Below, one piece after another: positions 1-13,159 of a stretch of DNA of 64,000 bases. The notes below the pieces were generated by a model. That model saw only the letters and a list, made by a program, of their open reading frames with translations. It ran no database searches and was not told where the DNA came from. The stretch is from Caldimonas caldifontis (lineage in GTDB: Bacteria > Pseudomonadota > Gammaproteobacteria > Burkholderiales > Burkholderiaceae_C), in NCBI RefSeq assembly GCF_002930615.1, contig NZ_PSNX01000008.1, positions 1-64,000 of the forward strand, in the 5' to 3' direction. Position numbers and translations under genes: made by a program. Positions within the stretch are counted from its first letter, which is position 1. Each line of letters opens with the position of its first letter.

Positions 1-185
1 GCATCACCCTGCAGGCCTCAGGCCTCACCGTGGAGTGCCCCGGCACGATCCGGGTGCAGGCGGGGAGCAGGAGGATGGTGGGGGCGGAGAGGGTGAGCTA
101 TGGGCTGCAGCAGATGCCGAAGTACGCTTGCGTTTCGTGCCTCCTCGCCGCATTGAAGTCAGGTTCAGCCCTTGCATCGATCTGA
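1..185 (+). CDS. VgrG, type VI secretion spike protein, C-terminal end (partial)
   Basis: Only the last 60 codons are present; the frame enters at base 3 and stops with TGA at 183-185. The peptide begins ITLQASGLTVECPGTIRVQAG and contains VGAERVSYGLQQMP, which resembles the end of the DUF2345 region of VgrG proteins: beta-strand repeats, then a TIRxxAG stretch and a short tail. VgrG trimers tip the T6SS tube and carry effectors. The next gene, a DUF4123 adaptor, starts 14 bases before this stop, the usual order in orphan vgrG-effector modules. The identification rests on the short C-terminal pattern plus context; the gp27/gp5-like body lies outside the window. Confidence 0.72.
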   Translation, partial: ITLQASGLTVECPGTIRVQAGSRRMVGAERVSYGLQQMPKYACVSCLLAALKSGSALASI

Positions 186-1080
186 AAAACACTACTACGC
201 TGTAGACGCGATCGACAAGCAGGTCCTAGTCGATCAAGTGCTGATGGCAATTTCAGCTGCCACCGGTTCTGTGGCGAGCGGCGAGACCATTTGTGCCTTG
301 GTCGACGAAGCGTTCGACTACGGCAGCAGACGACTTCAGATCCACTATCCCTGCGTGCGTCTGTACTCGGAAGGCCGTTGGGAACAATTCTCAGAGGTGA
401 GCCCGCTTTTGATTCGGTTGCCAGTTGAGCGCATCGAAGAACTTCGTCAAGCAGTCTGGCGGTTGGTGCACCATTGCTCTGGGCGCCCAATGTTCAGCAT
501 TGTCGTGACCCGTTGGTCGCTTCCTGACCTGGCTTGCCACTTGCGTCAGTGCATGGCGCCGAAAGTGGAGGGGATGGGGTCGTTGCTGCTGAGGTTTGCC
601 GACACGAGGGTCGCGGCGACCCTCCCTCTGCATCTCAAGCCAGCAAACTGGTCCCGGCTAACTGATCCGATAGACCGATGGTGGATTGTTGATCGCACGG
701 GGTCCCTCATCGAACTCCATAAACCCGAAGCGTTCCAGGAACACGAATCGCGCGAAGTTCGTGAATTTGCTTTGAGCGATGATGAAGTGAATGGTCTCGT
801 TCATGCAGGCATGCCTGACGCTTTGATACAGACCATGTCGGACCAGCTACCGGAACTCCTCCCGAAAGACGGACGCGTGCTCTTCTACGGATCGATGGTA
901 GAGGTTGTGGAACTGGCGCGTCGCTGCCGAATTGATGCCTATCCGGACATCTATGCACTCGCGGTATTCCGCCGCGTGACGGGGCGTGAAGCGCTTCTTG
1001 AAGCATCGACCGTGGCGATGTTGAATGCCAGAGACTGGCCGCAAGGACAGCTCGCCAGCAAACTGATGGAGAAGGTGTGA
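172..1080 (+). CDS. DUF4123 T6SS effector adaptor/chaperone
   Basis: A 302-residue protein read from a TTG at 172, overlapping the VgrG end by 14 bases. An ATG at 244 is an in-frame alternative, and the true start is uncertain because neither has a strong ribosome site. The region CALVDEAFDYG, then PCVRLYSEG..., and later LLLRFADTRVAATLP has the pattern of DUF4123 (Tap/TEC) proteins. These bind a specific effector and load it onto the cognate VgrG. Position between vgrG and a Tle1-type lipase fits that role exactly. The C-terminal 100 residues are not recognisable and may carry cargo specificity. The region is visibly less GC-rich than the core genome to the right, as is common for T6SS cargo modules. 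Confidence 0.82.
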   Translation: MHRSEKHYYAVDAIDKQVLVDQVLMAISAATGSVASGETICALVDEAFDYGSRRLQIHYPCVRLYSEGRWEQFSEVSPLLIRLPVERIEELRQAVWRLVHHCSGRPMFSIVVTRWSLPDLACHLRQCMAPKVEGMGSLLLRFADTRVAATLPLHLKPANWSRLTDPIDRWWIVDRTGSLIELHKPEAFQEHESREVREFALSDDEVNGLVHAGMPDALIQTMSDQLPELLPKDGRVLFYGSMVEVVELARRCRIDAYPDIYALAVFRRVTGREALLEASTVAMLNARDWPQGQLASKLMEKV

Positions 1081-1159
1081 TTGGCGGAAAGACAATCAAG
1101 AAGCTATGCGCTCTTCGCGCTAACCGAGGACTGCATCGGTCGGATCAAGGAGCATAGCG

Positions 1160-1702
1160 ATGAGCGTAGAGCGAACCGGCACCTTGCTGGCGATGGCACA
1201 ACGAGTTCACCGAGGCTTAGGTATGGTTTCCGGCATCGGTGTGCTGGTAGGCGCACTATCGGCGTGTGCAAAGGATGACAAGGTCTCCACAAACTACACG
1301 GTGGTCAACCACACACGCGGTGGAGTCGTCTACATCACTGTCGATCAGCAAGGCGGGATCCTGGTTGCGGGGCCGCACAGCCAAAGCGGTGATGCATGTT
1401 GCGTCACTATTCCCAAGCAGTGGAGACCTGATTTCAGGGTGACTATCGGCTGGCAGGATGACAGCACTGAACAGCTTGATGCCGATGGAAAGCCAATATT
1501 GCGGGACGGAAGGCCCGTGCTCGTTCCGGGCGAGAAGTACCTCCGAACAGTACCTATTGAGGAGTACGCCTCAAACAACCTCGGCACCATGAAGATTCAC
1601 ATCCTGCCAGACAAGAATGTGATCGTTGTAGTCAGCTTGCTTGCGCCCTTTCACCCAGATTACCTGCCAAAGAACCCTTTGCAGGGTCCGAGACAGCCAT
1701 GA
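1160..1702 (+). CDS. DUF3304 lipoprotein, probable Tle1 immunity protein
   Basis: A 180-residue protein starting at ATG 1160 with an AAGGAG ribosome site eight bases upstream. A hydrophobic stretch ends in the lipobox LSAC (Cys36), so it is predicted to be exported and lipidated; starts at residue 12 or 22 would give a shorter signal. The remainder matches the DUF3304 pattern: NYTVVNHT near the start of the mature part, a CCVTIPKQW block, then VPGEKYLRTVPIEEY. DUF3304 lipoproteins are commonly encoded beside Tle1 phospholipases and act as periplasmic immunity proteins. The stop overlaps the start of the lipase gene by four bases (ATGA), so the two are translationally coupled. Assignment as immunity protein is from family and context, not demonstrated here. 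Confidence 0.8.
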   Translation: MSVERTGTLLAMAQRVHRGLGMVSGIGVLVGALSACAKDDKVSTNYTVVNHTRGGVVYITVDQQGGILVAGPHSQSGDACCVTIPKQWRPDFRVTIGWQDDSTEQLDADGKPILRDGRPVLVPGEKYLRTVPIEEYASNNLGTMKIHILPDKNVIVVVSLLAPFHPDYLPKNPLQGPRQP

Positions 1703-3330
1703 CGACCCAAGCCGCCAAACCCTTTCCCAGCCGAGGATTGCGTAGCCTGAGCCCGCGTGAAGCGCTACAAAGAACAGCAGCGCTTGCCTGTACTCTTCCG
1801 CAAGACGGGCAGCCCCGCTGTTCGGGCCAGGTGCACGTGGGCATCTTCTTTGACGGCACTGGGAACAATTTGGCCAACGATTTTGATGGGCCGCCCCCGG
1901 AGCAACGCAAGCACAGCAACGTGGTGCGTCTTTTTCAGGCGCATCGAGTCAACCCAAGCGAAGGCTTTTTCGCCTACTACGCGCCTGGTGTTGGAACCCC
2001 GTTCCCGGACATTGGTGACGATGGGCAGTACTGGGGGCCCAATCGCGGTTCGGCTTTCGCTTCGCGCGGTGAGCGGAGAATCACCTGGGCCTTCATGCAG
2101 CTGCTGAATGCGCCGCACGTGTATGTCAAGGGTACGGCGCTGCTTCCCGCCGAGCGTGCCAACCACATTGCAAGGACGCTGGGTTCTACGGGCAGCCCAG
2201 CGATGCAACGCCGGTCTGCGCTTCGCTACTGGCAAGACCAACTCAGTGCGGCATTAAAAGGCCAGAAGCCAACGGTGACGCAAATCAATGTATCGGTCTT
2301 CGGGTTTTCGCGCGGTGCGGCGCAGGCGCGTGCGTTCGTGAATTGGTTGTTTGAGAGCTGCGAACAGCAAGGTGGTGGCTACACCTTTGCCGGAATGCCG
2401 ATAAGGCTGCATTTTCTGGGCATCTTCGACACCGTGGCCTCTGTGGGAATTGCGAACCTCTACGAGAACGAGGTGTTCACCGGTCACCAGGCCTGGGCCG
2501 ACCGCAACATGCGCATTAATCCCGGTGTTGAGCAGTGTGTGCACTTTGTAGCCGGGCATGAAGTAAGGGCGTGCTTTCCCTTGGACTCCGTGCGGGTGGA
2601 TGGTACCTACCCGGACAATGCCATTGAGATCATGTACCCAGGTGCGCATTCAGACATTGGCGGCGGCTACGCTCCGGGCGATCTGGGTGTTTCGCCCGTG
2701 CAAGGGGATTTCATCAGCGTCATCACTGGCCAACACATGTACCACGAGGCCCGCAAGGCCGGCGTACCTTTGCTAGCTTGGGAACAGTTGAGTGCGGTCG
2801 TGAGGGACAGCCTAACGCCCTCTGAAAAGGCTATCGCTACGTTCAACAACTACGTCACAGCATCCGCACACGGTAGCGGCTCTGTTGAAGCCCTGCACAA
2901 GGCGCACTGGAAGCAGTATCTCAGCTGGAGATTCAAGCATCGCATAGCGTATGCATCGCGCGCCCCTGTGACTTCGGCCAACGGCGCGCAACGCGAGCAC
3001 ATGTGCAAATCTCAGTCTGATTTCATGCTTCGACTGCGCAGACTGGGAGTGGGAGGTAATCCCGAAGATCCCACTTACGACCCGAAACGGGCCGCTCGGC
3101 TATTCAAGGAGATGCACCGTGCTTCAGGACTGCCCATCAGCAGGGGCGAACAAGAGCTCCTCGATATTCTCGAGTTGATCGAACCTAACGAACTGCTGCC
3201 CAACGTGGAGAAACTGTTCGAGTCATACGTTCATGATTCGGTCGCTGGGTTCATGAGTCAGCTGGACGAGTTCGATCGCAACGGGCTGGGCATTGGGAAG
3301 TTGCGAACTGTGTTCAAGGGCCAGCACTGA
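1699..3330 (+). CDS. Tle1-family T6SS phospholipase effector (DUF2235)
   Basis: A 543-residue alpha/beta-hydrolase of the DUF2235 family. Landmarks are HVGIFFDGTGNN near residue 50, the nucleophile elbow GFSRGAA with Ser204, GIFDTVASVG carrying the likely catalytic Asp, and YPGAHSDIGGGY carrying the likely His. Tle1 enzymes are type VI lipase effectors that hydrolyse phospholipids of rival cells from the periplasm. No signal peptide is seen, as expected for VgrG-delivered cargo. The gene follows the immunity lipoprotein with an ATGA overlap and ends the module; no further T6SS genes follow. Specificity (PLA1 or PLA2) cannot be read from sequence. Confidence 0.88.
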   Translation: MTTQAAKPFPSRGLRSLSPREALQRTAALACTLPQDGQPRCSGQVHVGIFFDGTGNNLANDFDGPPPEQRKHSNVVRLFQAHRVNPSEGFFAYYAPGVGTPFPDIGDDGQYWGPNRGSAFASRGERRITWAFMQLLNAPHVYVKGTALLPAERANHIARTLGSTGSPAMQRRSALRYWQDQLSAALKGQKPTVTQINVSVFGFSRGAAQARAFVNWLFESCEQQGGGYTFAGMPIRLHFLGIFDTVASVGIANLYENEVFTGHQAWADRNMRINPGVEQCVHFVAGHEVRACFPLDSVRVDGTYPDNAIEIMYPGAHSDIGGGYAPGDLGVSPVQGDFISVITGQHMYHEARKAGVPLLAWEQLSAVVRDSLTPSEKAIATFNNYVTASAHGSGSVEALHKAHWKQYLSWRFKHRIAYASRAPVTSANGAQREHMCKSQSDFMLRLRRLGVGGNPEDPTYDPKRAARLFKEMHRASGLPISRGEQELLDILELIEPNELLPNVEKLFESYVHDSVAGFMSQLDEFDRNGLGIGKLRTVFKGQH

Positions 3331-3382: not shown

Positions 3383-4270
3383 CTACATACACCCCACCAC
3401 CTCCCGATGCCCCACCTGCAACGACAGCCCCTCGACCTGTGATTGCCTCCGCGCCGCCCAGGCGCGGAAGGTGGTGGCCTGGTCGGGTTGCTGCTCGCAG
3501 GCGGCGATGCTGATGCCATCGATCAGGGCCTGACGCAGGGGTGCGGCGGTGGGGCCGTCGAGTTGCCAATCCGAGTGGGCGGTATTGACGCGGTAGCCGA
3601 CTGAGGCCAGGCGTTGTTCCAGCACGGCTGGGGCCTGCGGGCCCAGGGCGGGGCCGAAGCCTTTGTTGCGGTGCTGGTGGGCCTGGAAGGCGGCCTGCAC
3701 CGCGGCGTCGGCGGGATCGCTGGGGGCCCAGCGGTCGCGGCCGTCCACGCTGAGGGCCATCCACACGGCGGCGCCGTGGGTGCGGCAGGCCTCCACCAGG
3801 CGCTGCAGCCAGGTGTCGGAGACGAGGTCGATCAGGGCCGAGGCCGTGAGGAGCTGCACGCCCTCCCACGGCAGGCGGTCGAGCTCGGTGACGAGGTCCA
3901 GGCGCCGGGCCTGCCAGTGCACCTGCCAGCCGCCCTCGGTGCTGCGCAGGGTGCCGCTGCGCCCGCTGGGGTCGATCTGGCATTGATGGCCGTGCGTGTG
4001 CGCCCAGTGCTGCAGCTTCAGGGGCAGGGCCTCCAGCAGGGCCGGGTCGTGGTCGATGAGGGTCCAGCGTTGCTCGCCGCCCAGGCGGACGCTGAGGTCG
4101 CGCAGGTTGGCGCCCGTGCCGCAGGCGAGGTCGAGCACGCCCAGGGGGCCGCCAGGGGCGCGCAGGCCGCTGGCCAGGGCGGCGGCGTCGAGGCTGCGCG
4201 CGGCGGCGTTGCGGGCGGCGTGGTCCCAGGGTTCGCGCAGGCTCAGCCAGTCGGCGGAAAAGCCGCTCAT
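3383..4270 (-). CDS. Class I SAM-dependent methyltransferase
   Basis: A 295-residue protein with the SAM-binding motif VLDLACGTGAN (about residues 50-60), followed by the acidic LIDHDPALL that binds the ribose in Rossmann methyltransferases. The substrate is not deducible. Its ATG (4268-4270) overlaps the TGA of the upstream glycosyltransferase gene, making it the last gene of a four-gene operon (dehydrogenase, PTPS-like protein, GT4, methyltransferase). A plausible role, by inference, is methylation of the glycolipid or small molecule built by its neighbours. It faces the T6SS module tail to tail with about 50 bases between them; no obvious terminator is visible in that gap. Confidence 0.85.
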   Translation of the reverse strand: MSGFSADWLSLREPWDHAARNAAARSLDAAALASGLRAPGGPLGVLDLACGTGANLRDLSVRLGGEQRWTLIDHDPALLEALPLKLQHWAHTHGHQCQIDPSGRSGTLRSTEGGWQVHWQARRLDLVTELDRLPWEGVQLLTASALIDLVSDTWLQRLVEACRTHGAAVWMALSVDGRDRWAPSDPADAAVQAAFQAHQHRNKGFGPALGPQAPAVLEQRLASVGYRVNTAHSDWQLDGPTAAPLRQALIDGISIAACEQQPDQATTFRAWAARRQSQVEGLSLQVGHREVVGCM

Positions 4271-5343
4271 GGCCGGGGGCCCACGTCGAGCAGCAGCCGG
4301 GCCATCTGTTCGACGGACTGCTCCCAGCGAGGCAAGCGGTCGCGCACCTGGAGGGCACCCTTGGCCAGCTTGGCGCGCAGCCGTGAGCCGGTGAGCCAGC
4401 GCTGCAGGGCCTCGCGCAGGGCGCGCACGTCGCCGGGCGGCACCATCAGGCGGGCGGCTTCGGGCACGGTCTCGGGGCTGGCGCCGCCGCTGGTGCACAC
4501 CACCGGCAAACCACGCGCCAGGGCTTCGGTGTAGACCATGCCATAGCCTTCGTACCACGAGGGCAGCACGAAGAGGTCGGCGCCGGCGTAGAGCGCATCG
4601 AGGTCGGTGTCGTCGACCACCCCGGTGAGCCGCACGCGGCTGGCCAGGGCATGCCGTTCGATGGCGGCCAGCACGGCCTGCGTGGCTTCGGGGTCGCGCG
4701 TCATGCTGCCCGCGCACACCAGGCGCCAGGGCAGGTCGGTGAGGCCGGCCAGGGCTTCGATGAGTTCGGCCTGGCCCTTGCGCACGCTCACGCTGCCCAC
4801 GCACAACAGCTGCGGCACGCCGCCTTGTGCGAGGCTGCCGGTGGCCACGGGGGCGGGGGTCACACCGGGTTCGATCACCTGGATGCGGCTGGGTGGCACG
4901 CCCCAGCCCTGGCGGCCAGGGGCGCTGAGGGTGCGGGCGGTGGTGGGGCTGGTCACGACGACGCGCCGCGCGTGCGAAAGCGCCCGCGATTCGCTGTCGC
5001 GCAAGACGGTCTGGAGGTCTGGCTGCAGGCCGGTTTCCAGCGCGAGCGGATGATGGACCAGCGCCACCCAGCGCAGCCGGGCCGCATGGTCGGCCGCAAG
5101 GCAGGGCAGGGCGCCAAAGGCCAGGCCGTCGGCCACCACGCACTCGCCATCAGGCAGGGCGGCCACGGCGTCCGCGGCGGCCTGCACGGCCTCATCGGTG
5201 GGCCAGGGGTAGGTGCCGGGCAGGCTGATGGTGTCCACACGCCAACCCGCCTCGCGCAGTCCATGCACCAGGGCGCGGTCGTAGCGATAGCCGCCGGTGG
5301 GCGTGTCGAGGTCGCCGGGGAAGAGGAAGGTGCAGCCGGGCAC
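4267..5343 (-). CDS. Glycosyltransferase family 4 (GT-B fold)
   Basis: A 358-residue GT4 enzyme. The start chosen is GTG at 5343, which overlaps the stop of the preceding PTPS-like gene; the protein then begins MPGCTFLFPGDLDTPTGGY, a normal GT4 N-terminus with a glycine-rich loop. The nucleotide-sugar site is clear in the C-terminal half: CVGSVSVRKG, then LPSWYEGYGMVYTEALARGLP with the EX7E-type acidic pair. It transfers a sugar from an NDP-sugar in the cytosol; acceptor unknown. It sits in the operon 5793-3383 and overlaps the methyltransferase start, so the product is probably a methylated glycoside, which is inference. Confidence 0.87.
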   Translation of the reverse strand: MPGCTFLFPGDLDTPTGGYRYDRALVHGLREAGWRVDTISLPGTYPWPTDEAVQAAADAVAALPDGECVVADGLAFGALPCLAADHAARLRWVALVHHPLALETGLQPDLQTVLRDSESRALSHARRVVVTSPTTARTLSAPGRQGWGVPPSRIQVIEPGVTPAPVATGSLAQGGVPQLLCVGSVSVRKGQAELIEALAGLTDLPWRLVCAGSMTRDPEATQAVLAAIERHALASRVRLTGVVDDTDLDALYAGADLFVLPSWYEGYGMVYTEALARGLPVVCTSGGASPETVPEAARLMVPPGDVRALREALQRWLTGSRLRAKLAKGALQVRDRLPRWEQSVEQMARLLLDVGPRP

Positions 5344-5345
5344 GA

Positions 5346-5771
5346 TCAGGCCTGCAGCGGGGGACGGGGCACGGGCAGTGCAGCCTCGTAGGCCGCCCAG
5401 GCGACGTGCGATTCGTGCAGCGTCACCTTGGCATGGGTGAGCCCTGCGGCGCTCGCGCCGAGGTCGCCCCGGGCGATGCGCTCGGCCACGCGGTCGAAGA
5501 TCACGCGGGCGAGAAATTCGGTGGTGGTGTTGCGGCCGCGGAAGACGGCCTCCTCGTCGAGGTTGCGGAAGTTCAGCGCAGAGAGGATCTCGCGCAGCAC
5601 CTCGGTGGCGCGGCCGATGTCGACCACGATGCCGTCGGCATCGAGTTCGGGGCGGCGCAGTTCCAGGTCGACCACGTAGGTGGCGCCATGCAGGCGCTGG
5701 GCGGGGCCGAAGACGGCGCCCTGGAAGCTGTGGGCGATCATGAAGTGATCGCGGACGTTGACGCTGTACAT
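5346..5771 (-). CDS. 6-pyruvoyl-tetrahydropterin synthase-fold protein with altered active site
   Basis: A 141-residue member of the COG0720 (PTPS/QueD) family, started at ATG 5771; a TTG two codons upstream is possible. Fold landmarks are FMIAHSF (residues 10-16), [12 protein letters not shown] (27-38) and the late TLHES with the conserved Glu. In QueD and PTPS the zinc is held by three His, and a Cys four residues before the HGH motif is catalytic. Here His14 and His28 remain, but the third His is Ala30 and the Cys position is Ala24. The catalytic LDH motif reads Leu66-Asn67-Phe68. It is therefore unlikely to make tetrahydropterin or 6-carboxy-tetrahydropterin by the known mechanism. No queC, queE or folE lies nearby; its neighbours are a dehydrogenase and a glycosyltransferase. 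Confidence 0.8.
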
Positions 5772-5792
5772 GGACAAGAGAGCTTTCGTGGG

Positions 5793-6803
5793 TCAGTCGT
5801 AATCGATGCGGTGGCACAGCACACCGCGGGCGTCGTGCGCGAGCTGCTTCAGCACCTCGGGCAATTCAACGAAAGGAGCGTGGTGGGTGATCAGGGCCTC
5901 CAGGCGGTCGTCGGCCAGCAGCGCCAGCGCCCGCTCGAGGCGCCGACGGTGGGTCCAGCGTGCCCGCATGGGCGCCGCCACCTGGCCCACCTGCGAGCTG
6001 CGCAGCACCAGCCGTTGGGCATGGAAGGCCTGGCCGAGCGGAAGTTCCACCGCGCGGGTGCCGTACCAGCTCAGTTCCAGCACGGTAGCCTCGAAGCCGG
6101 CCAGGGCGAGGGCGGTGCGCAGGCCGGCCGGCTGGCCGCTCGCATGCACCACCAGGTCTGCATCGCCGCGCGCGACGTCGGGCGAGGCAAAGCCCAGGCC
6201 CAGGCGGGCGGCCACACCGGCGCGTGCCGGGTCGGTGTCCACCAGCTCCACCTCGCAGCCGGGCGTGCGTGCGGCCAGCCAGGCCACCAGCAGGCCCACC
6301 ACGCCGCCGCCCACCACGCTGACGCGCCCGCCAGGCGGCGCGGGCGCATCCCACAGCGCGTTCAGGGCGGTTTCCATGTTGGCGGCCAGCACCGCGCGCG
6401 CCGGGGGCAGGCCTGCGGGCAAGGGCACCACGGTGTCGGCCGGCACCACATAGCGGCTCTGGTGCGGATACAGGCAGAACACCGTGTGCCCGATCAGGGC
6501 TTGTGCGCCGGCCTCCACCACGCCGACACTGGCATAGCCATACTTGAGCGGCGCCGGGAAGTCGCCGGCCTGGAAGGGCGCGCGCATGCGATCGTGCTCA
6601 GAGGCCGGCACCTCGCCGCGGAACACCAGCGTCTCGGTGCCGCGGCTGATGCCGCTGTGCAGGGTGCGCACCTGAACCTCCGTGGCCCCGGGCGCTCGAA
6701 GGGGTTCGGGCCGCAACTCGGCGCGCCCCGGCTCGGCCAGCCAGCAGGCCCAGGCCTGGGGGGTGTCGAGGGGGGGCGGTGACGAAGGATGGGAAGAAGG
6801 CAT
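5793..6803 (-). CDS. MDR-superfamily dehydrogenase lacking the GHE zinc motif
   Basis: A 336-residue medium-chain dehydrogenase/reductase-like protein (ATG 6803; ATG 6815 also in frame). The N-terminal domain has [20 protein letters not shown] and the Rossmann half has [15 protein letters not shown] followed by an acidic VDTD that suggests NAD rather than NADP. The usual GHExxG zinc motif is replaced by [10 protein letters not shown] and there is no catalytic Cys-His pair, so it resembles the zinc-free BchC/TDH-like branch. Substrate unknown. It is the first gene of the leftward operon with the PTPS-like, GT4 and methyltransferase genes, and starts only 15 bases from the divergent CDP-alcohol phosphotransferase gene. 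Confidence 0.8.
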
Positions 6804-6818
6804 AGCCGCGAGCATCTT

Positions 6819-7646
6819 ATGTCGGAGACGATGGACACAGGCACACCAGGGACGTCGGCACCCGCAAGCGCGGGGGCTGCGGCCTTGCGGCGCGACGCCC
6901 ATCGCTCGCTGCTGGCCGGCGCGGTGCTGGTGGTTGCGGCGGGCTGGGGTCTGCATGCGGCCTGGCCCGCGCTTTTTGGTGCGGGCTATGCCGGCAAGGC
7001 CATTGCCCTGTACGGGATGGCGGCCGGCTTGCTGCTGCACGGCCTGCGGCACCACCGCAATGCCCGAGGTGAGCTGCACCCTCGCTTCGGTGCGGCCAAC
7101 CAGGTGAGCCTGCTGCGGCTGGGCATGCTGGCGATGCTGGCCGCCCTGGTCGGCGAGGGGGCGGCGCGTGCCGGCCAACCGGGCGCGGCGGTGCTGGGCT
7201 GGGCCATCGTCGTGTGGGCCACGGTCGGGGCGGTGCTCGATGCGGTCGATGGGCCGCTCGCGCGCCGCAGCGGCCTGGCCAGCGACTTCGGCGCGCGCTT
7301 CGACATGGAGACCGATGCGGCCCTGATGCTGGTGCTGTGCCTGTTGATCGTGCAGTTCGGCCAGGCCGGGCCCTGGGTGCTGGCCGTGGGCCTCATGCGC
7401 TATGCCTTCGTGGCGGCCAGCTGGGCCTGGCGCTGGCTCGCACGGCCCCTGCCGCCCAGCACACGCCGCAAGACGGTGTGCGTGGTGCAGATCGTCACCC
7501 TGATCACGGCCCTGGGCCCCATCATTCCCCCGGCCGGGGCCGCCCTCATCGCCGGCGCGGGCCTGGTCCTGCTCGTGTATTCCTTTGCTGTGGACGTGCG
7601 ATGGCTGGCTCAGCGACGTCACCTTCCCCTGGAGAACGCACCATGA
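6819..7646 (+). CDS. CDP-alcohol phosphotransferase, integral membrane
   Basis: A 275-residue polytopic membrane protein from ATG 6819. Residues 141-163 carry the complete family signature DxxDGxxAR...GxxxDxxxD (DAVDGPLAR, then GARFDMETD), which binds two metals and the CDP-alcohol. Such enzymes move a phospho-alcohol head from a CDP-diglyceride, or from a CDP-linked alcohol, to an acceptor at the membrane. It is not an obvious PgsA, PssA or Cls by context. It leads a rightward operon with YceI and an LTA-synthase-like enzyme (ATGA overlaps at 7643 and 8245) and is divergent from the glycosyltransferase operon. Together these suggest an unusual lipid head group or envelope polymer; this is inference. 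Confidence 0.87.
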
Positions 7647-8248
7647 CCCTCACTCCCCTGCATCGGCGTGCCTGGATGCTGGCCGCCTCGCTGTTGTTCC
7701 TCACCGGGGGCGCCGCGGCCCAGGCCCCCCGCTACGTGCTCGACGCCGAGCACCTGTCCATCGGCTTCATGGTCGACCACATCGGCTACGCCAAGGTGCT
7801 GGGCATGTTCCTCGAGGGCAAGGGCTCCTACCGTTTCGACGAAGCCACCGGCACGCTCAGCGATGTGCGCATCGAGGTGGCCACCAACAGCGTCTTCACC
7901 AACCATCGCGCGCGTGACAACCACCTCAAGGGGGCGCAGTTCCTGAACGTGAAGGAGTTCCCGGCCATGGTCTTCACGGCCGACAGCGCCAAGCGCGTGG
8001 GCGACCGCCAGTACGAGATCACCGGCCAGCTCGAATTGCTGGGCCAGCGCCAGCCGCTCACGCTGCGTGCCACCTGGAACAAGAGCAACACCTACGAGAT
8101 CCCCGGCCAGGGCCGGCCCTATGTGATGGGTGTGTCGGCCCGCGGCAGCTTCAAGCGCAGCGCCTACGGCATGAACTATGCCGTGGCCAACGGCTGGGTG
8201 GGTGACGAGGTCGAGCTGATCCTCGAGTTCGAGGCGCGTCGCCAATGA
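7643..8248 (+). CDS. YceI-family periplasmic lipid-binding protein
   Basis: A 201-residue protein with a cleavable signal peptide (hydrophobic run ending GGAAAQA) and the YceI beta-barrel pattern: [26 protein letters not shown], the [15 protein letters not shown] motif, FPAMVFTA and SYAYGMNY-like SAYGMNYAV near the end. YceI proteins are lipocalin-like barrels that bind isoprenoid or other long amphiphiles in the periplasm. The ATG overlaps the stop of the CDP-alcohol phosphotransferase gene, and its own stop overlaps the next gene, so it is co-translated with two membrane enzymes of lipid-linked chemistry. It may carry or shield their lipid intermediate, an inference from operon position. 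Confidence 0.87.
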
Positions 8249-9936
8249 CGGTGCAGCGCGAGTCCAGCACCCTGCCCTGGGTGTGGCGCACGGGGGCGGC
8301 GTTTCTGCTGCTCAATGCACTGATCACCTTCGAGACCCTGTGGCCCGGCCCTTGGGTGCGCCCGGGCCTGCGCCTGTCGTTCGAGCTGTGCCTGGGCGTG
8401 CTTGTGCTGATGGCCTTCGTCGCCTGGCGAGGCCGTGCACCGGGCCCGCGGGCGCTGGCGACGCTCGCCGCGGGCTACACCGTGCTGGTGCTGATGCGCT
8501 ATGCCGACGTCACGGCCCCGGCGGTGTTCGGCCGCGACGTGAACCTCTACTGGGACGGACCGCATGTCGTCGAGGTCCTGCGCCTGGCGGCGCAGTCCTT
8601 GGGATGGCTGCCCGTGGTCGGCGCGCTGCTGGCCCTGGCCCTGGGGCTGGGCCTCGTCTGGCTGCTGTCGCGCTGGGCCCTCGGGCAACTCGCGCACAGC
8701 CTGCTCTGGCACCGTCCACGCCCCTGGCTGCTGGCCGTGGGATTGGGCTTGAGCGCCAGCTGGACCGTGCACCCCCATGTGCCCCAGGACACACGCTGGT
8801 TCTTTTCGTTGCCCGTGAGCCCGACGCTGGCCCGCCAGGCGGCCCTGCTGCCGGCGGCCTGGTCCACCCAGACCACCGAGACGCGCCTGTCACCCAGTCC
8901 GGCCTTCGACACCGACGTGATGCGCCTGCGCGGCGCGCCGGTGCTGCTGCTGTTTGCCGAAGCCTACGGTGCCACCACCTTCGACCACCCCCAGCATCGC
9001 GAGGCCCTGGCGCCCGCGCGCGAGGCGCTGGCCGACGCGCTGGCGGCGAGCGGCCGCCACGTGGTGTCGGCGCGCTACCGCTCGCCCACCTTCGGGGGCT
9101 CGTCCTGGCTGGCCCACGGGGCGCTGCTCACCGGCGTGGACACCCACAACCCGCGCGATCACGACCTGCTGCTCACCAGCCGCCGGCCGCACCTTGTGCA
9201 GCACTTCGCCCGCCACGGCTACCGTACGGTGGGCTGGATGCCGGGCCTGCAACGCCCCTGGCCCGAGGGGCGCTACTGGGGCTATGAACGCTATGCCGAT
9301 GCCGATGGCGTGGGCTACACCGGCCCCCACTTCGGCTACTGGCGCATCCCCGACCAGGCCGCGATGGCGCTGCTGCACACCCAGGAACTGGCCACCGAGG
9401 GCCCCGCGCGCTTCGTGGTCTTCCCCACCGTGACGAGCCATGCCCCGTTCCGGCCCGTGGCCCCGCTGCGCGACGACTGGACCGGGCTGCTGCAACCCAC
9501 CGCCTACCGCGACGACGAACTCCAGGCCGCACTGGCCGAGCCCGTGTCGTGGACACGCCCGACCGAGGCCTACCTGCAAAGCATGCGCTACACCCTGGGC
9601 TGGCTCGCGAGCTACCTGCGCGACCACGCGCCGGACGACCTGCTCACTCTCGTGGTGGGCGACCACCAGCCCATCGCCAGCGTGACCGGCCCGAATGCGT
9701 CCTGGGACGTGCCGGTGCACATCATCAGCCGCGATGCCGCTCTGCTGCAGCGCTTCGAGGCCGCAGGCTTCACGGCGGGCCTGGAGCCCTCGCCCCACAG
9801 CCTCGGGCCGCTGCACGCCTTGACGCCCCTGCTGCTGTCAGCCTTTGATGGCTGCGGCGGTCAGGCCGCCTGCCTGAGCGCCGGCCTCGCCGTCGAGCCG
9901 GGCGAGGATGTCGCCGGAGGGCGCGTCGTCCGGTAG
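8245..9936 (+). CDS. LTA synthase/sulfatase-fold membrane enzyme
   Basis: A 563-residue protein with four or five N-terminal membrane segments (about residues 12-185) and an extracytoplasmic alkaline-phosphatase-superfamily domain. Landmarks are LLLFAEAYGATT, where Glu239 is a likely metal ligand and Thr244 or Thr245 the likely nucleophile, TVTSHAPFRP, and LVVGDHQP with metal ligands Asp473-His474. This layout matches LtaS, OpgB and phosphoethanolamine-transferase relatives, which move phospho-alcohol groups from phospholipids to sugars or other acceptors outside the membrane. It is the last gene of the operon with the CDP-alcohol phosphotransferase. The final 32 residues are encoded antisense to the end of the FkbM gene, and may be a run-on tail. 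Confidence 0.8.
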   Translation: MTVQRESSTLPWVWRTGAAFLLLNALITFETLWPGPWVRPGLRLSFELCLGVLVLMAFVAWRGRAPGPRALATLAAGYTVLVLMRYADVTAPAVFGRDVNLYWDGPHVVEVLRLAAQSLGWLPVVGALLALALGLGLVWLLSRWALGQLAHSLLWHRPRPWLLAVGLGLSASWTVHPHVPQDTRWFFSLPVSPTLARQAALLPAAWSTQTTETRLSPSPAFDTDVMRLRGAPVLLLFAEAYGATTFDHPQHREALAPAREALADALAASGRHVVSARYRSPTFGGSSWLAHGALLTGVDTHNPRDHDLLLTSRRPHLVQHFARHGYRTVGWMPGLQRPWPEGRYWGYERYADADGVGYTGPHFGYWRIPDQAAMALLHTQELATEGPARFVVFPTVTSHAPFRPVAPLRDDWTGLLQPTAYRDDELQAALAEPVSWTRPTEAYLQSMRYTLGWLASYLRDHAPDDLLTLVVGDHQPIASVTGPNASWDVPVHIISRDAALLQRFEAAGFTAGLEPSPHSLGPLHALTPLLLSAFDGCGGQAACLSAGLAVEPGEDVAGGRVVR

Positions 9937-10632
9937 GCCGCGCAGCCAGGCCCGCATTGCATCGGCATCGAGCGCCACCTCGGGCTGCAGCCGCAGCTGC
10001 TCGCCCACGCTCCACTGGTAGCGGTAGCGCCCCAGGGCTTCCAGCCGGTCGATGCAGCCCAGGGCCAGGTCGCGCACGGGAGCCAGGAACTCGAAGGACA
10101 GCGCCGGCACCGGCTGGCTCAGGCCCTGCAGCACCTCCAGTTCGAAGCCTTCGACGTCGATCTTGATGAAGTCGGGCCGGCCATGCTGCGCCATCAGCGC
10201 ATCGAGCGTGGTCACCGGCACCACCGGCCCGGGCGACCAGCGCACGCCCTGGAACGAGGCGGTGGCCCCCGCGCGCTGCGCCCAGTCGGCCGACAGCGTG
10301 CTCACCGTGGGCGTGGCCTCGCTGGCCAGCAACTGCGCCTGACCGGCTTCGCGCCCCAGGGCCACCGGCAGCACCGTGACACCCGCATCGCGCGCAAACC
10401 AGCGCGACAGCAAGGCCACGAAATCGGGCTGCGGCTCCACCGCCACCACCCGCGCGCCCAGTGCGCGAAAGGCGCGCACCCGGTTGCCCGCATGCGCCCC
10501 CACATCGAAGGCCAGCCCACCGGCCGGCACCACGGGCGCATAGAAGCGCCGCAATTGCGCCGCACGCCACGGGATGCCGTGGTAGATGGCCAGCGATCGC
10601 AGGAGGCCCCAGGTGCGAGAAAAGAAAGGCAT
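9838..10632 (-). CDS. FkbM-family methyltransferase
   Basis: A 264-residue protein started at ATG 10632 (MPFFSRTWGLL). The Rossmann core shows FDVGAHAGNRVRAFRALG and VAVEPQPDFVALL, and the family hallmark FIKIDVEGFELEVLQGL lies about two thirds along. FkbM enzymes are O-methyltransferases of sugars and polyketides. The gene converges with the LTA-synthase-like gene and the two coding regions overlap by 99 bases at their 3' ends. Its start lies 37 bases from the divergent SNF2 helicase start. Whether it works with the neighbouring envelope cluster is unknown; the orientation shows it is a separate transcription unit. Confidence 0.85.
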   Translation of the reverse strand: MPFFSRTWGLLRSLAIYHGIPWRAAQLRRFYAPVVPAGGLAFDVGAHAGNRVRAFRALGARVVAVEPQPDFVALLSRWFARDAGVTVLPVALGREAGQAQLLASEATPTVSTLSADWAQRAGATASFQGVRWSPGPVVPVTTLDALMAQHGRPDFIKIDVEGFELEVLQGLSQPVPALSFEFLAPVRDLALGCIDRLEALGRYRYQWSVGEQLRLQPEVALDADAMRAWLRGLPDDAPSGDILARLDGEAGAQAGGLTAAAIKG

Positions 10633-10669
10633 GCGGCGATTGTGCTCGGCCGCCCGGCACAATCCCTCC

Positions 10670-13159
10670 ATGCCCCCATCACCTGCCGGCCTTGCGCCCG
10701 TCCCCGGCCATTTCCAGCCCCGCCTCACCCTCCAGACCCTGGGCCAGGGTGACGGCCTGCTGGGCCTGAGGCCCGAAGGGCCCTTCGGGCCGCGCGGTGA
10801 GCAGGTGACGGTGGCCTGGGTGGATTGGACCTACACGGTGGAGCCGCCCGGGGGGGGTGCGCCTTTGCGCTGGGAAGCGCCAGCGCCGACGCGGGCCCTG
10901 GGCCGGCGGGCCGAGCCGGTGGAGGTGCTGCGCGGTGCCTGGGGCGTGCAGGTGGCGATGGCGCGCGATGCCGTGGCCGAGGCCGATGCCATCGACGTGG
11001 TGCGCACCCTGGGCCTGCGGCCGCTGCCCGAGCAGGCGCTGCAATGGCGGCACCGCGAGGCGGCCGCGGGCGTGAGCGGGCCGCTGTGGAGCCTCGTGCA
11101 GGAAGCCCACTTCGCCGACCTGTGGGCCGACGAGGTGCCGCGCCTGCAGGCGATGGGTTGGCGGGTGGTGGTGCGGCCCGGCTTTGCGCACGAGAGCGTG
11201 CCTGTCACTGCGTGGCGCATGGTGATGGCGCCGGGCTCGGGTGAGCCCGCCCGCGAGCCGAAGGATTTTGCGCCGCAGGTGCCTTCGCTCGATCCGCTGG
11301 GCCTGCCGCGGCGCGAAGGCTCGTGGCTGCTGAGCCTGGGCGTGGAGGTCGATGGCCAGACGCTGGACCTGGCCCCCCTGGTGGCCGACCTGCTGCGCCG
11401 CGACAAGCGCTGGCTGCATGCCGAGGAGATCGCCGCGATCGACGACGCAGCGCGCATCCGGCTGCGCGCGCCCGGAGGCCGGCGCATCGAGATGCCGGCC
11501 GCGCCGCTGAAGGCCATCGTGGGGGCCATGGTGGACCTGTTGGTGGACCGCGATGTGGAAGAGGGCCCGCTGGTGCTGTCGGCCTGGGACGCCCACCGCA
11601 TCGAGTCCCTGCAGGCGCAGCGTGCGGGCGCAGACGGGGCCTGGGCGCTGCAGGGCGACACGGGCCTGGCGCAACTGGCCCAGCGCCTGCGCGACAGCGG
11701 CGGCCTGCGTCCCGTGCCGCCGCCCACGGGCCTGGGCCTCACATTGCGGCCCTATCAGCTGCAGGGCCTGGCCTGGCTGCAATACCTGCGCGAGCAGCGC
11801 CTGGCGGGCATCCTGGCCGACGACATGGGCCTGGGCAAGACGGCACAGACCCTCGCCCACCTGCTGGTCGAGCAACAGGCCGGGCGGCTGGACGTGCCCG
11901 CGCTCGTGGTGCTGCCCACCTCGCTGCTCTTCAACTGGCGCGCCGAGGCGCGGCGCATCGCGCCCGCCTTGCGGGTGCTGGTGCTGCACGGCGCACAGCG
12001 CCACCGCCACTTCGAGCGCTTGGCCGACCACGACCTGGTGCTCACCACCTACCCCCTGCTGTGGCGCGACATCGACACGCTCGCCGGGCAGGCGTTCCAC
12101 ACCGTGATCCTCGACGAGGCCCAGACGGTGAAGAACGCCGGCAGCCGCGCCGCACGCGCGCTGCGCCGCCTGCGCTCGCGCCACCGCCTGGCGCTCACCG
12201 GCACGCCGCTGGAAAACCACCTGGGCGATCTCTGGGCGCATTTCGATTTCCTGATGCCCGGCTTCCTGGGCGACGCACGCCATTTCGTGCGGCACTGGCG
12301 CAAGCCCATCGAGACCCACGGCGAGACGCTGCGCGCCCAGTTGCTGGCCCAGCGCGTGCGGCCCTTCATCCTGCGCCGCCGCAAGGACGACGTGGCGCCC
12401 GAGCTGCCGCCCAAGACCGAGGTGATCCGCCGCGTGGCGCTGCAGGGCCGCCAGCGCGAGCTGTACGAAAGCGTGCGCGTGGCGGCCGACGAGCAGGTGC
12501 GTCGCGCACTCAAGCGCAGCGGCTTCGACGGCGCACAGATCAGCATCCTCGATGCCCTGCTCAAGCTGCGCCAGGCCTGCAACGACCCGCGTCTGCTCAA
12601 GCGCGTACACCCCGGGGAGGTGCCGCCGGAGAGCGCCAAGCGCGAATGGCTGCGCGAAATGCTGCCCGAGCTGATCGACGAAGGGCGCCGCGTGCTGCTG
12701 TTCTCGCAGTTCACCGAGATGCTGGGCCTGATCGAGGAAGACCTGGCCGCGCTGCACCTGCCCTGGGTGAGCCTGACCGGCGACACCCCACCCGCGCAGC
12801 GCGGCGAGGTGGTGCGCCGCTTCCAGGACCGCGAGGTGCCGCTGATGCTGCTCAGCCTCAAGGCCGGCGGCGTGGGCCTGAACCTCACCGCGGCCGACAC
12901 GGTGATCCATGTGGACCCGTGGTGGAACCCGGCCGTGGAAGAGCAGGCCACGGCGCGCGCCCACCGCATCGGCCAGGACCAGCCGGTGTTCGTCTACAAG
13001 CTCGTGGCCGAGGGCAGCATCGAGGAGCGCATGCTCGCCTTGCAGGCGCGCAAGACGGCGCTCGCCGAAGGCGTGCTGGGGCGTGATGCCGCCGAGGCCG
13101 CCAAGTTCGGCCCTGACGACCTCGAAGGTTTGCTGGCGCCTCTTCCCGCGGACCTCTGA
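10670..13159 (+). CDS. SNF2-family DEAD/DEAH helicase (HepA/RapA-like ATPase)
   Basis: An 829-residue Swi2/Snf2 ATPase from ATG 10670. The helicase core is complete: GILADDMGLGKT with Walker Lys390, the ILDEAQ box at 482-485, LTGTPLENHLGDLWA (motif III), LLFSQFTEML, LSLKAGGVGLNL (motif V) and the Arg-finger motif ATARAHRIGQ (VI). The first 350 residues form a lineage-specific N-terminal region without a recognisable zinc finger. Bacterial members move along duplex DNA and remodel stalled RNA polymerase or protein-DNA complexes. A metallophosphoesterase gene follows 13 bases later, probably in the same transcript. No restriction or defence genes adjoin it, so a housekeeping role is more likely than a phage-defence one. 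Confidence 0.92.
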   Translation: MPPSPAGLAPVPGHFQPRLTLQTLGQGDGLLGLRPEGPFGPRGEQVTVAWVDWTYTVEPPGGGAPLRWEAPAPTRALGRRAEPVEVLRGAWGVQVAMARDAVAEADAIDVVRTLGLRPLPEQALQWRHREAAAGVSGPLWSLVQEAHFADLWADEVPRLQAMGWRVVVRPGFAHESVPVTAWRMVMAPGSGEPAREPKDFAPQVPSLDPLGLPRREGSWLLSLGVEVDGQTLDLAPLVADLLRRDKRWLHAEEIAAIDDAARIRLRAPGGRRIEMPAAPLKAIVGAMVDLLVDRDVEEGPLVLSAWDAHRIESLQAQRAGADGAWALQGDTGLAQLAQRLRDSGGLRPVPPPTGLGLTLRPYQLQGLAWLQYLREQRLAGILADDMGLGKTAQTLAHLLVEQQAGRLDVPALVVLPTSLLFNWRAEARRIAPALRVLVLHGAQRHRHFERLADHDLVLTTYPLLWRDIDTLAGQAFHTVILDEAQTVKNAGSRAARALRRLRSRHRLALTGTPLENHLGDLWAHFDFLMPGFLGDARHFVRHWRKPIETHGETLRAQLLAQRVRPFILRRRKDDVAPELPPKTEVIRRVALQGRQRELYESVRVAADEQVRRALKRSGFDGAQISILDALLKLRQACNDPRLLKRVHPGEVPPESAKREWLREMLPELIDEGRRVLLFSQFTEMLGLIEEDLAALHLPWVSLTGDTPPAQRGEVVRRFQDREVPLMLLSLKAGGVGLNLTAADTVIHVDPWWNPAVEEQATARAHRIGQDQPVFVYKLVAEGSIEERMLALQARKTALAEGVLGRDAAEAAKFGPDDLEGLLAPLPADL

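Follow-up and report, generated by a model that had tools for sequence, protein, structure and literature searches.

A widespread orphan gene set in Caldimonas caldifontis that may encode an envelope-fixed, pteridine-type compound

The genome of Caldimonas caldifontis carries seven genes at positions 3383-9936 of the window analyzed here, a stretch of 64,000 nucleotides (contig NZ_PSNX01000008.1 of assembly GCF_002930615.1, positions 1 to 64,000). Our comparative data indicated that they belong to a widespread gene set, of which this is one copy, and are not a local oddity. We give about an even chance to the reading that the set encodes a biosynthetic pathway, in which a GTP-derived pteridine-type precursor is converted into a glycosylated, methylated and envelope-fixed compound. 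The precursor and the end point can be named with moderate confidence, and we infer the product and every reaction.

Layout, distribution and conservation of the gene set

Four core genes lie on the reverse strand: a BchC-like MDR dehydrogenase (core gene 1, 5793-6803, called by profile and motif), a predicted PTPS-IV (SCO6650-type) T-fold protein (core gene 2, 5346-5771, PF01242), a GT4 glycosyltransferase (core gene 3, 4267 to about 5343, with its GTG start set by eye, PF13692) and a class I S-adenosylmethionine-dependent methyltransferase (MT; core gene 4, 3383-4270, called by Pfam and predicted fold). Divergent from them, on the forward strand, are a CDP-alcohol phosphotransferase (CDPAP; 6819-7646, PF01066), which represents the first type of membrane partner, and two accessory genes, namely a YceI-family protein with an N-terminal signal region recognized by eye (7643-8248, PF04264) and an alkaline-phosphatase-superfamily membrane transferase with an LtaS/GacH/EptA-type fold (LtaS-like; 8245-9936, called by fold). 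All seven frames were open and intact, neighbors abutted or overlapped, and the start codons of MDR and CDPAP, as called, were 15 bp apart, in agreement with an initial annotation that had described two divergent, tightly overlapping operons.

Scanning GTDB contigs with an MDR profile yielded at least 584 confirmed stretches, of which the best 80 by MDR similarity, related to each other, were taken as named loci. Their genes were called by homology and tblastn, and counts out of 80 refer to matches within 9 kb of MDR. The named loci spanned Burkholderiales, Halomonadaceae, Streptomyces, Gemmatimonadota, Alphaproteobacteria and Acidobacteria, and the same-strand order MDR-PTPS-GT4-MT was kept in 73 of the 80 (PTPS, 75/80; GT4, 75/80; MT, 73/80). 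The seven departures comprised L038, L042, L043, L045 and L052, in which PTPS, GT4 and MT were not found, together with L053 and L086, in which MT was not found, the latter extending only about 2.1 kb past MDR. Of the 60 named loci with CDPAP within 9 kb, 56 had it next to MDR and divergent from it. The complete seven-gene layout was seen again in L031, L032, L034, L037, L041, L051 and L066, all Burkholderiales by title, and an RibD_C gene was inserted between MDR and PTPS in L028 and L030. The genes travel as a set, as initially proposed, and scattering in relatives was not found.

The occurrence of PTPS was patchy at every rank. With the window's own genome included in each count, PTPS was present at 75% identity or more in 3 of 9 genomes of the genus (other matches, 33% or less), at 56% or more in 16 of 299 genomes of the family (the remaining 32 of 48 matches, at 36% or less, were QueD-like in appearance), in 7 of 250 genomes of the order, and, as a marker, in 27 of the 398 genomes sampled across the phylum (20/213 genera; E up to 1e-20). 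Another 20 plasmid records carry PTPS (E up to 1e-15). This patchy occurrence and the plasmid copies suggest that the cluster is probably moving between lineages.

Within the order, a distant copy and a remnant of 31 residues were also found in genome G140. Its distant sister cluster (L022, contig C28 of G140, 6396-11678) contains RibD_C, MDR, PTPS, MT, CDPAP and GT4 in a different order, and the PTPS of this cluster keeps HSH, the canonical zinc spacing. A second, decayed-looking copy (L023, contig C105 of G140, 7374-9475) has the first ~30 PTPS residues running in frame into GT4 and an MT that appears remnant-like by eye, followed by an FkbM gene.

Compared with the closest genus-mate (G252), NG86 ratios of nonsynonymous to synonymous substitution (dN/dS) were 0.16 for MDR, 0.19 for PTPS, 0.41 for MT, 0.27 for CDPAP, 0.26 for YceI and 0.45 for GT4, the last computed with a mis-extended start. 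On these sequence comparisons, the six of the seven window genes that are comparable with G252 look constrained (0.16-0.45). The values for three genes described below were 0.21 (FkbM), 0.17 (RibD_C on contig C10) and 0.10 (RibA on contig C10). Against the more distant genus-mate G256, with synonymous sites near saturation, the ratios ran from 0.30 (FkbM) to 0.69 (MT), with 0.49 for the LtaS-like gene.

Assignment of the seven proteins

The PTPS protein matched PF01242 in the Pfam search (89.7 bits), and its sole sequence match in the PDB was 3d7j (SCO6650; E 1.3e-51). Residues were compared in an alignment of 96 sequences (of 99 rows, window included; three were excluded by name or length), with E. 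coli QueD as the reference. HGA replaced HGH in 96/96 sequences, with loss of the third zinc histidine, so that the rewired active site claimed initially holds throughout the alignment. The pterin-site glutamate (E122) was retained in 96/96, and the catalytic-triad Asp was changed to Asn in 90/96. The FGPAQ signature, as defined in PMC5445326, was present in the window protein and in 94 of the 96 aligned sequences. Judged from these motifs and matches, the window protein is a member of PTPS-IV (SCO6650-type). SCO6650 itself, from the work of Spoonamore on SCO6650 and SCO6655, reportedly lacks zinc and PTPS activity and retains a pterin-like site.

The initial statement that no named pathway contains this set stood in one respect and not in another: our literature searches returned no such pathway and no product of the cluster, but the PTPS-IV family and its neighbors RibD_C (PF01872) and PF00925 were already in print (PMC5445326). 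The window protein shares the sequence family, FGPAQ and probably these neighbors with SCO6650 (PDB 3D7J), and no family-level difference was apparent; GT4, MT, CDPAP and the exclusive membrane partners are not named in the PTPS-IV portion of that paper.

The best curated match of MDR was TIGR01202 (BchC), at 59.5 bits versus a cut-off of 291.25 over residues 22-321. Membership in BchC was rejected on this score, and the core neighbors differ from those of bacteriochlorophyll synthesis. Its motif SGISRGTE, in which S53, G55 and E57 were invariant in 30 aligned sequences, stands at what we take to be the position of the first catalytic-zinc Cys of zinc MDRs, which is consistent with the initial view of an apparently zinc-less enzyme. 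No PDB sequence match was found for MDR at E up to 0.001, and those for CDPAP and MT were weak.

The other family calls made initially were upheld, with PTPS, GT4, CDPAP and YceI scoring above Pfam cut-offs and MT and the LtaS-like protein scoring below them and being carried by fold. GT4 matched PF13692 at 101 bits, YceI matched PF04264 at 119.7 bits versus a cut-off of 23.7, and CDPAP matched PF01066 (CDP-OH_P_transf) at 51.8 bits. The window CDPAP conforms to the signature DxxDGxxAR...GxxxDxxxD, and the motif D-x2-DG-x2-AR-x8-G-x3-D-x3-D was invariant in 28/28 aligned sequences. MT reached 26 bits against Methyltransf_25, just below the cut-off of 27; its AF2 model (pLDDT 95) has a class I methyltransferase fold, and the structure search gave no substrate hint, its top matches being diverse class I methyltransferases. 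The LtaS-like protein scored 17.5 bits against Sulfatase (cut-off, 25), and neither it nor its alignment had a PDB sequence match at E up to 0.1. Its AF2 model (pLDDT 85.6) gave VIA Z scores of 20.8 to GacH and 20.3 to LtaS, the best Foldseek E-value was to a phosphoethanolamine transferase, and E239, S287, D473 and H474 were invariant in 18/18 aligned sequences. Its predicted fold is thus common to the GacH/LtaS/EptA phosphoglycerol and phosphoethanolamine transferases (Z 18-21), and with the LtaS family proper it matches by fold only, without a sequence match. In the predicted model, the LtaS-like assignment holds at the fold level. A reading of the locus as a defense system was dropped, as none of the seven had a PADLOC match at E up to 0.001.

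Precursor genes and the contig ends

The starting compound had been described only as a small polar molecule. Since the set includes genes for GTP cyclohydrolase II and RibD_C, a pteridine or ribityl-pyrimidine is the better reading. An RibD_C reductase was present in 64 of the 80 named loci, a GTP cyclohydrolase II paralogue (RibA) in 36, a creatininase in 34 and an FkbM-type methyltransferase in 31; a flippase-like PF03706 gene, located 3.3-4.1 kb from the MDR start and directly after MT, was present in 34. The Pfam identity of these wider-set genes was checked on representatives. These genes point to a GTP-derived 2-amino-4-oxo ribitylaminopyrimidine or pterin as the most likely precursor.

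The window's genome has its extra copies of RibD_C (139-1074, reverse strand) and RibA (1154-2317, forward strand) side by side and divergently oriented at the left end of contig C10 (L113). This RibD_C has no deaminase domain by Pfam; therefore, the 2-amino group should remain on the ring. A second RibD_C and RibA pair on contig C28 of the same genome is taken to be the riboflavin genes. Within the window, the FkbM gene (9838-10632, reverse strand; PF05050, 68.9 bits) is a convergent neighbor that overlaps the end of the LtaS-like gene by 99 bp. It recurs in and belongs to the cluster; the initial annotation overlooked it, along with RibD_C and RibA, which lie outside the window.

On its contig (C32), the window forms the left edge, and there an island of the type VI secretion system (T6SS; 1-3330, forward strand), outside the pathway, adjoins the MT gene. 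It begins with an apparent vgrG end (DUF2345, 16.4 bits, below the cut-off), followed by a cassette of DUF4123, DUF3304 and a Tle1-like phospholipase, and its GC content is 0.573 versus 0.722. The G252 contig bearing RibD_C extends into the beginning of a vgrG-like gene (Phage_GPD, 140 bits). In G256 (L149), MT, RibD_C and RibA are contiguous within the single uninterrupted stretch FkbM-LtaS-YceI-CDPAP / MDR-PTPS-GT4-MT-RibDC-RibA. The vgrG-effector island thus probably separates the window cluster from RibD_C and RibA on C10. The simplest reading would be that an ancestor shared by the window species and G252 acquired the island by insertion between MT and RibD_C, and that the repeated vgrG broke both assemblies. 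In another genus-mate (G254), contig C14 (L180) carries RibD_C, RibA and creatininase genes at one end; the PTPS search there gave only a weak QueD-like match.

At the RibA position corresponding to E. coli Tyr105, Met was found in 7/7 Streptomyces rows and Tyr in 35 rows, including that of the window's genome; three rows were unreadable. Met at this position is presumably the SCO6655 type, which forms FAPy. The expectation that Met-type RibA would occur with creatininase and Tyr-type RibA without it half held: all 7 Met rows have creatininase, and so do 23 of the 35 Tyr rows. No match to creatininase (PF02633) was found in the window's own genome; therefore, a direct route to the diaminopyrimidine is expected there. 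The FAPy (ArfB/BrbF) branch was rejected for this genome given the absent PF02633 match and the Tyr at position 105 of the C10 RibA. The archaeal ArfB step and bacterial BrbF, the creatininase-like enzyme shown to deformylate FAPy (AFRPP; PMC9478397), share with the wider set the first steps of GTP cyclohydrolase, creatininase-family formamidase and pyrimidine reductase. That route leads to riboflavin or FO, whereas here PTPS-IV, MDR, GT4 and MT come next.

Membrane partners, competing explanations and the proposed pathway

Envelope attachment is favored because the membrane partners of the core are interchangeable and mutually exclusive. Among 97 loci with MDR and PTPS (from 102 examined, five without PTPS being left out), 67 had CDPAP, 14 an OpgH-like glucosyltransferase and 7 a PlsC-like acyltransferase (22.2 and 22.9 bits versus a Pfam cut-off of 23), and 9 had none; exactly one partner type was thus present in 88/97 and, under cut-offs set post hoc, two types in no locus. 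At E 0.001, CDPAP had no match in 6 of the 14 core-carrying family genomes searched (G012 and G060, of another family, were excluded), and in four of these six (G476, G338, G394 and G450; L154, L155, L157 and L163) the acyltransferase replaces it. This suggests that the core product is attached to the envelope in the last step, in line with the envelope end point proposed initially. CDPAP distances were correlated with the MDR and PTPS distances (Mantel rho, 0.56 and 0.57, respectively; 0/200 permutations), a result that is confounded by species relatedness and carries little weight.

The YceI and LtaS-fold proteins, initially placed within the pathway itself, are accessories and not core. YceI occurred in 16/80 and the LtaS-like gene in 18/80 named loci (LtaS-like matches near 30% identity may be other superfamily members), and 6/16 family loci lacked CDPAP, YceI and the LtaS-like gene at the locus. 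In family loci with CDPAP, YceI was present in 10/10 and the LtaS-like gene in 8/10. YceI proteins bind isoprenoids. A cytochrome b561 gene, a possible redox link, was observed in the cluster on 2 of 3 annotated plasmid stretches and within 7 kb of MDR in 9/80 named loci, a count without a chance control. Loci with this gene in or near the cluster are L016, L018, L020, L023, L056, L058, L067, L068, L069, L080, L082, L089, L092, L184 and L185.

Several observations weigh against the proposed pathway. Five of the 80 MDR loci had no PTPS, GT4 or MT found, and three of them (L038, L042 and L052) keep CDPAP and an LtaS-like match. The zero-overlap probabilities of the partners (1.6e-4 and 5.2e-9) are not strict, given the related loci and the OpgH-like cut-offs (at least 45% identity, within 5 kb), which were chosen after seeing the data. 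Without these cut-offs, CDPAP is also present in 11 of 27 loci with an OpgH-like match; the 11 (ten Halomonadaceae and one Gemmatimonadota) were excluded at 33-41% identity and 5.4-9.8 kb from MDR. Nine of the 97 core loci have no partner; three of these have 2.1 kb or less upstream, and in two (L044 and L065) a membrane GT2 takes the partner's place. Short contigs could conceal a second partner. The LtaS-like gene is absent from G252, the MT ratio against G256 is 0.69, and the placement of RibD_C and RibA next to the window cluster is deduced from contig ends. Creatininase stands alongside Tyr-type RibA within the fetched stretch in the 23 rows mentioned above, and a FAPy branch does not track the RibA type closely.

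A possible but doubtful alternative is that the product is a soluble glycosylated pterin or pyrimidine that works inside the cell as a cofactor, pigment or UV screen, in parallel with the pterin glycosides of cyanobacteria, and that the nearby membrane genes serve another purpose. GT4 and MT are typical of soluble glycosides, and the six family carriers without a CDPAP match fit this explanation; however, exactly one membrane-acting partner in 88/97 core loci, the acyltransferase in four of the six CDPAP-less genomes and the flippase-like gene within 9 kb in 34/80 loci argue against it. It is improbable that two unrelated operons merely adjoin each other, one for a pteridine (left) and one for an envelope function (CDPAP-YceI-LtaS, right). 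The absence of the right-hand set from 6/16 family loci and the CDPAP and LtaS-like matches beside MDR in L038, L042 and L052 would be expected in that case, but CDPAP is divergent and adjacent in 56/60 loci across phyla, and the Mantel correlations with MDR and PTPS, confounded as noted above, likewise speak against it.

A branch of riboflavin, FO or F420 biosynthesis is quite unlikely and is largely contradicted for the window's genome. The GTP cyclohydrolase and RibD_C steps are common to both, and PMC5041015 remarks, with reference to unpublished data, that PTPS-IV has a part in the synthesis of F420 in archaea. Against this, the FO synthase CofG was above the cut-off in 1 of 11 carriers searched (G012) and below it in the other nine and in the window's own genome (25.2 bits versus 213.35), where an F420 role of the cluster is unlikely; the separate C28 pair can serve riboflavin, and GT4, MT and CDPAP have no known role in these routes. 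A QueD-type queuosine gene in a chance neighborhood is scarcely credible. It is the identity implied by the label 6-carboxytetrahydropterin synthase (queuosine) on 14 of the 20 plasmid PTPS records, but the window protein contradicts that label both by score (46.2 bits versus a TIGR03367 cut-off of 89.25) and by motif (CxxxHGH is absent); Asn replaces the catalytic Asp in 90/96 aligned sequences. An identity as 6-pyruvoyl-tetrahydropterin synthase was likewise rejected (TIGR00039, 34.9 bits versus 125.5).

In the pathway that we propose, from a GTP-derived pteridine-type precursor to an envelope-fixed compound, the second GTP cyclohydrolase II (C10) would open GTP to 2,5-diamino-6-ribosylaminopyrimidinone 5'-phosphate, and the RibD_C without a deaminase domain (C10) would reduce the ribose to ribityl, leaving the 2-amino group in place. 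The conserved Glu of PTPS-IV could then hold the 2-amino-4-oxo ring or a derived pterin, for a chemistry that proceeds without the full PTPS zinc site and triad. The BchC-like MDR may alter the oxidation state of the side chain, after which GT4 would add a sugar and MT a methyl group. CDPAP would link the head group to a lipid via a phosphodiester, with an acyltransferase or a membrane glucosyltransferase acting instead in other lineages, and in many Burkholderiales YceI and the LtaS-fold enzyme may handle or decorate the product in the periplasm. More tentatively, and with appreciably less confidence than for the pathway as such, the product might represent a new class of envelope molecule, a glycosylated, methylated pteridine that interchangeable modules anchor to a membrane lipid or periplasmic glucan and that possibly acts as a redox-active cofactor of the membrane.

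Collectively, our findings describe a conserved orphan pathway that has already been partly described at the family level. With its gene order, enzymes and several named carriers now on record, the question is directly testable; if our reading is true, these organisms would possess a pteridine-bearing lipid or glycan.

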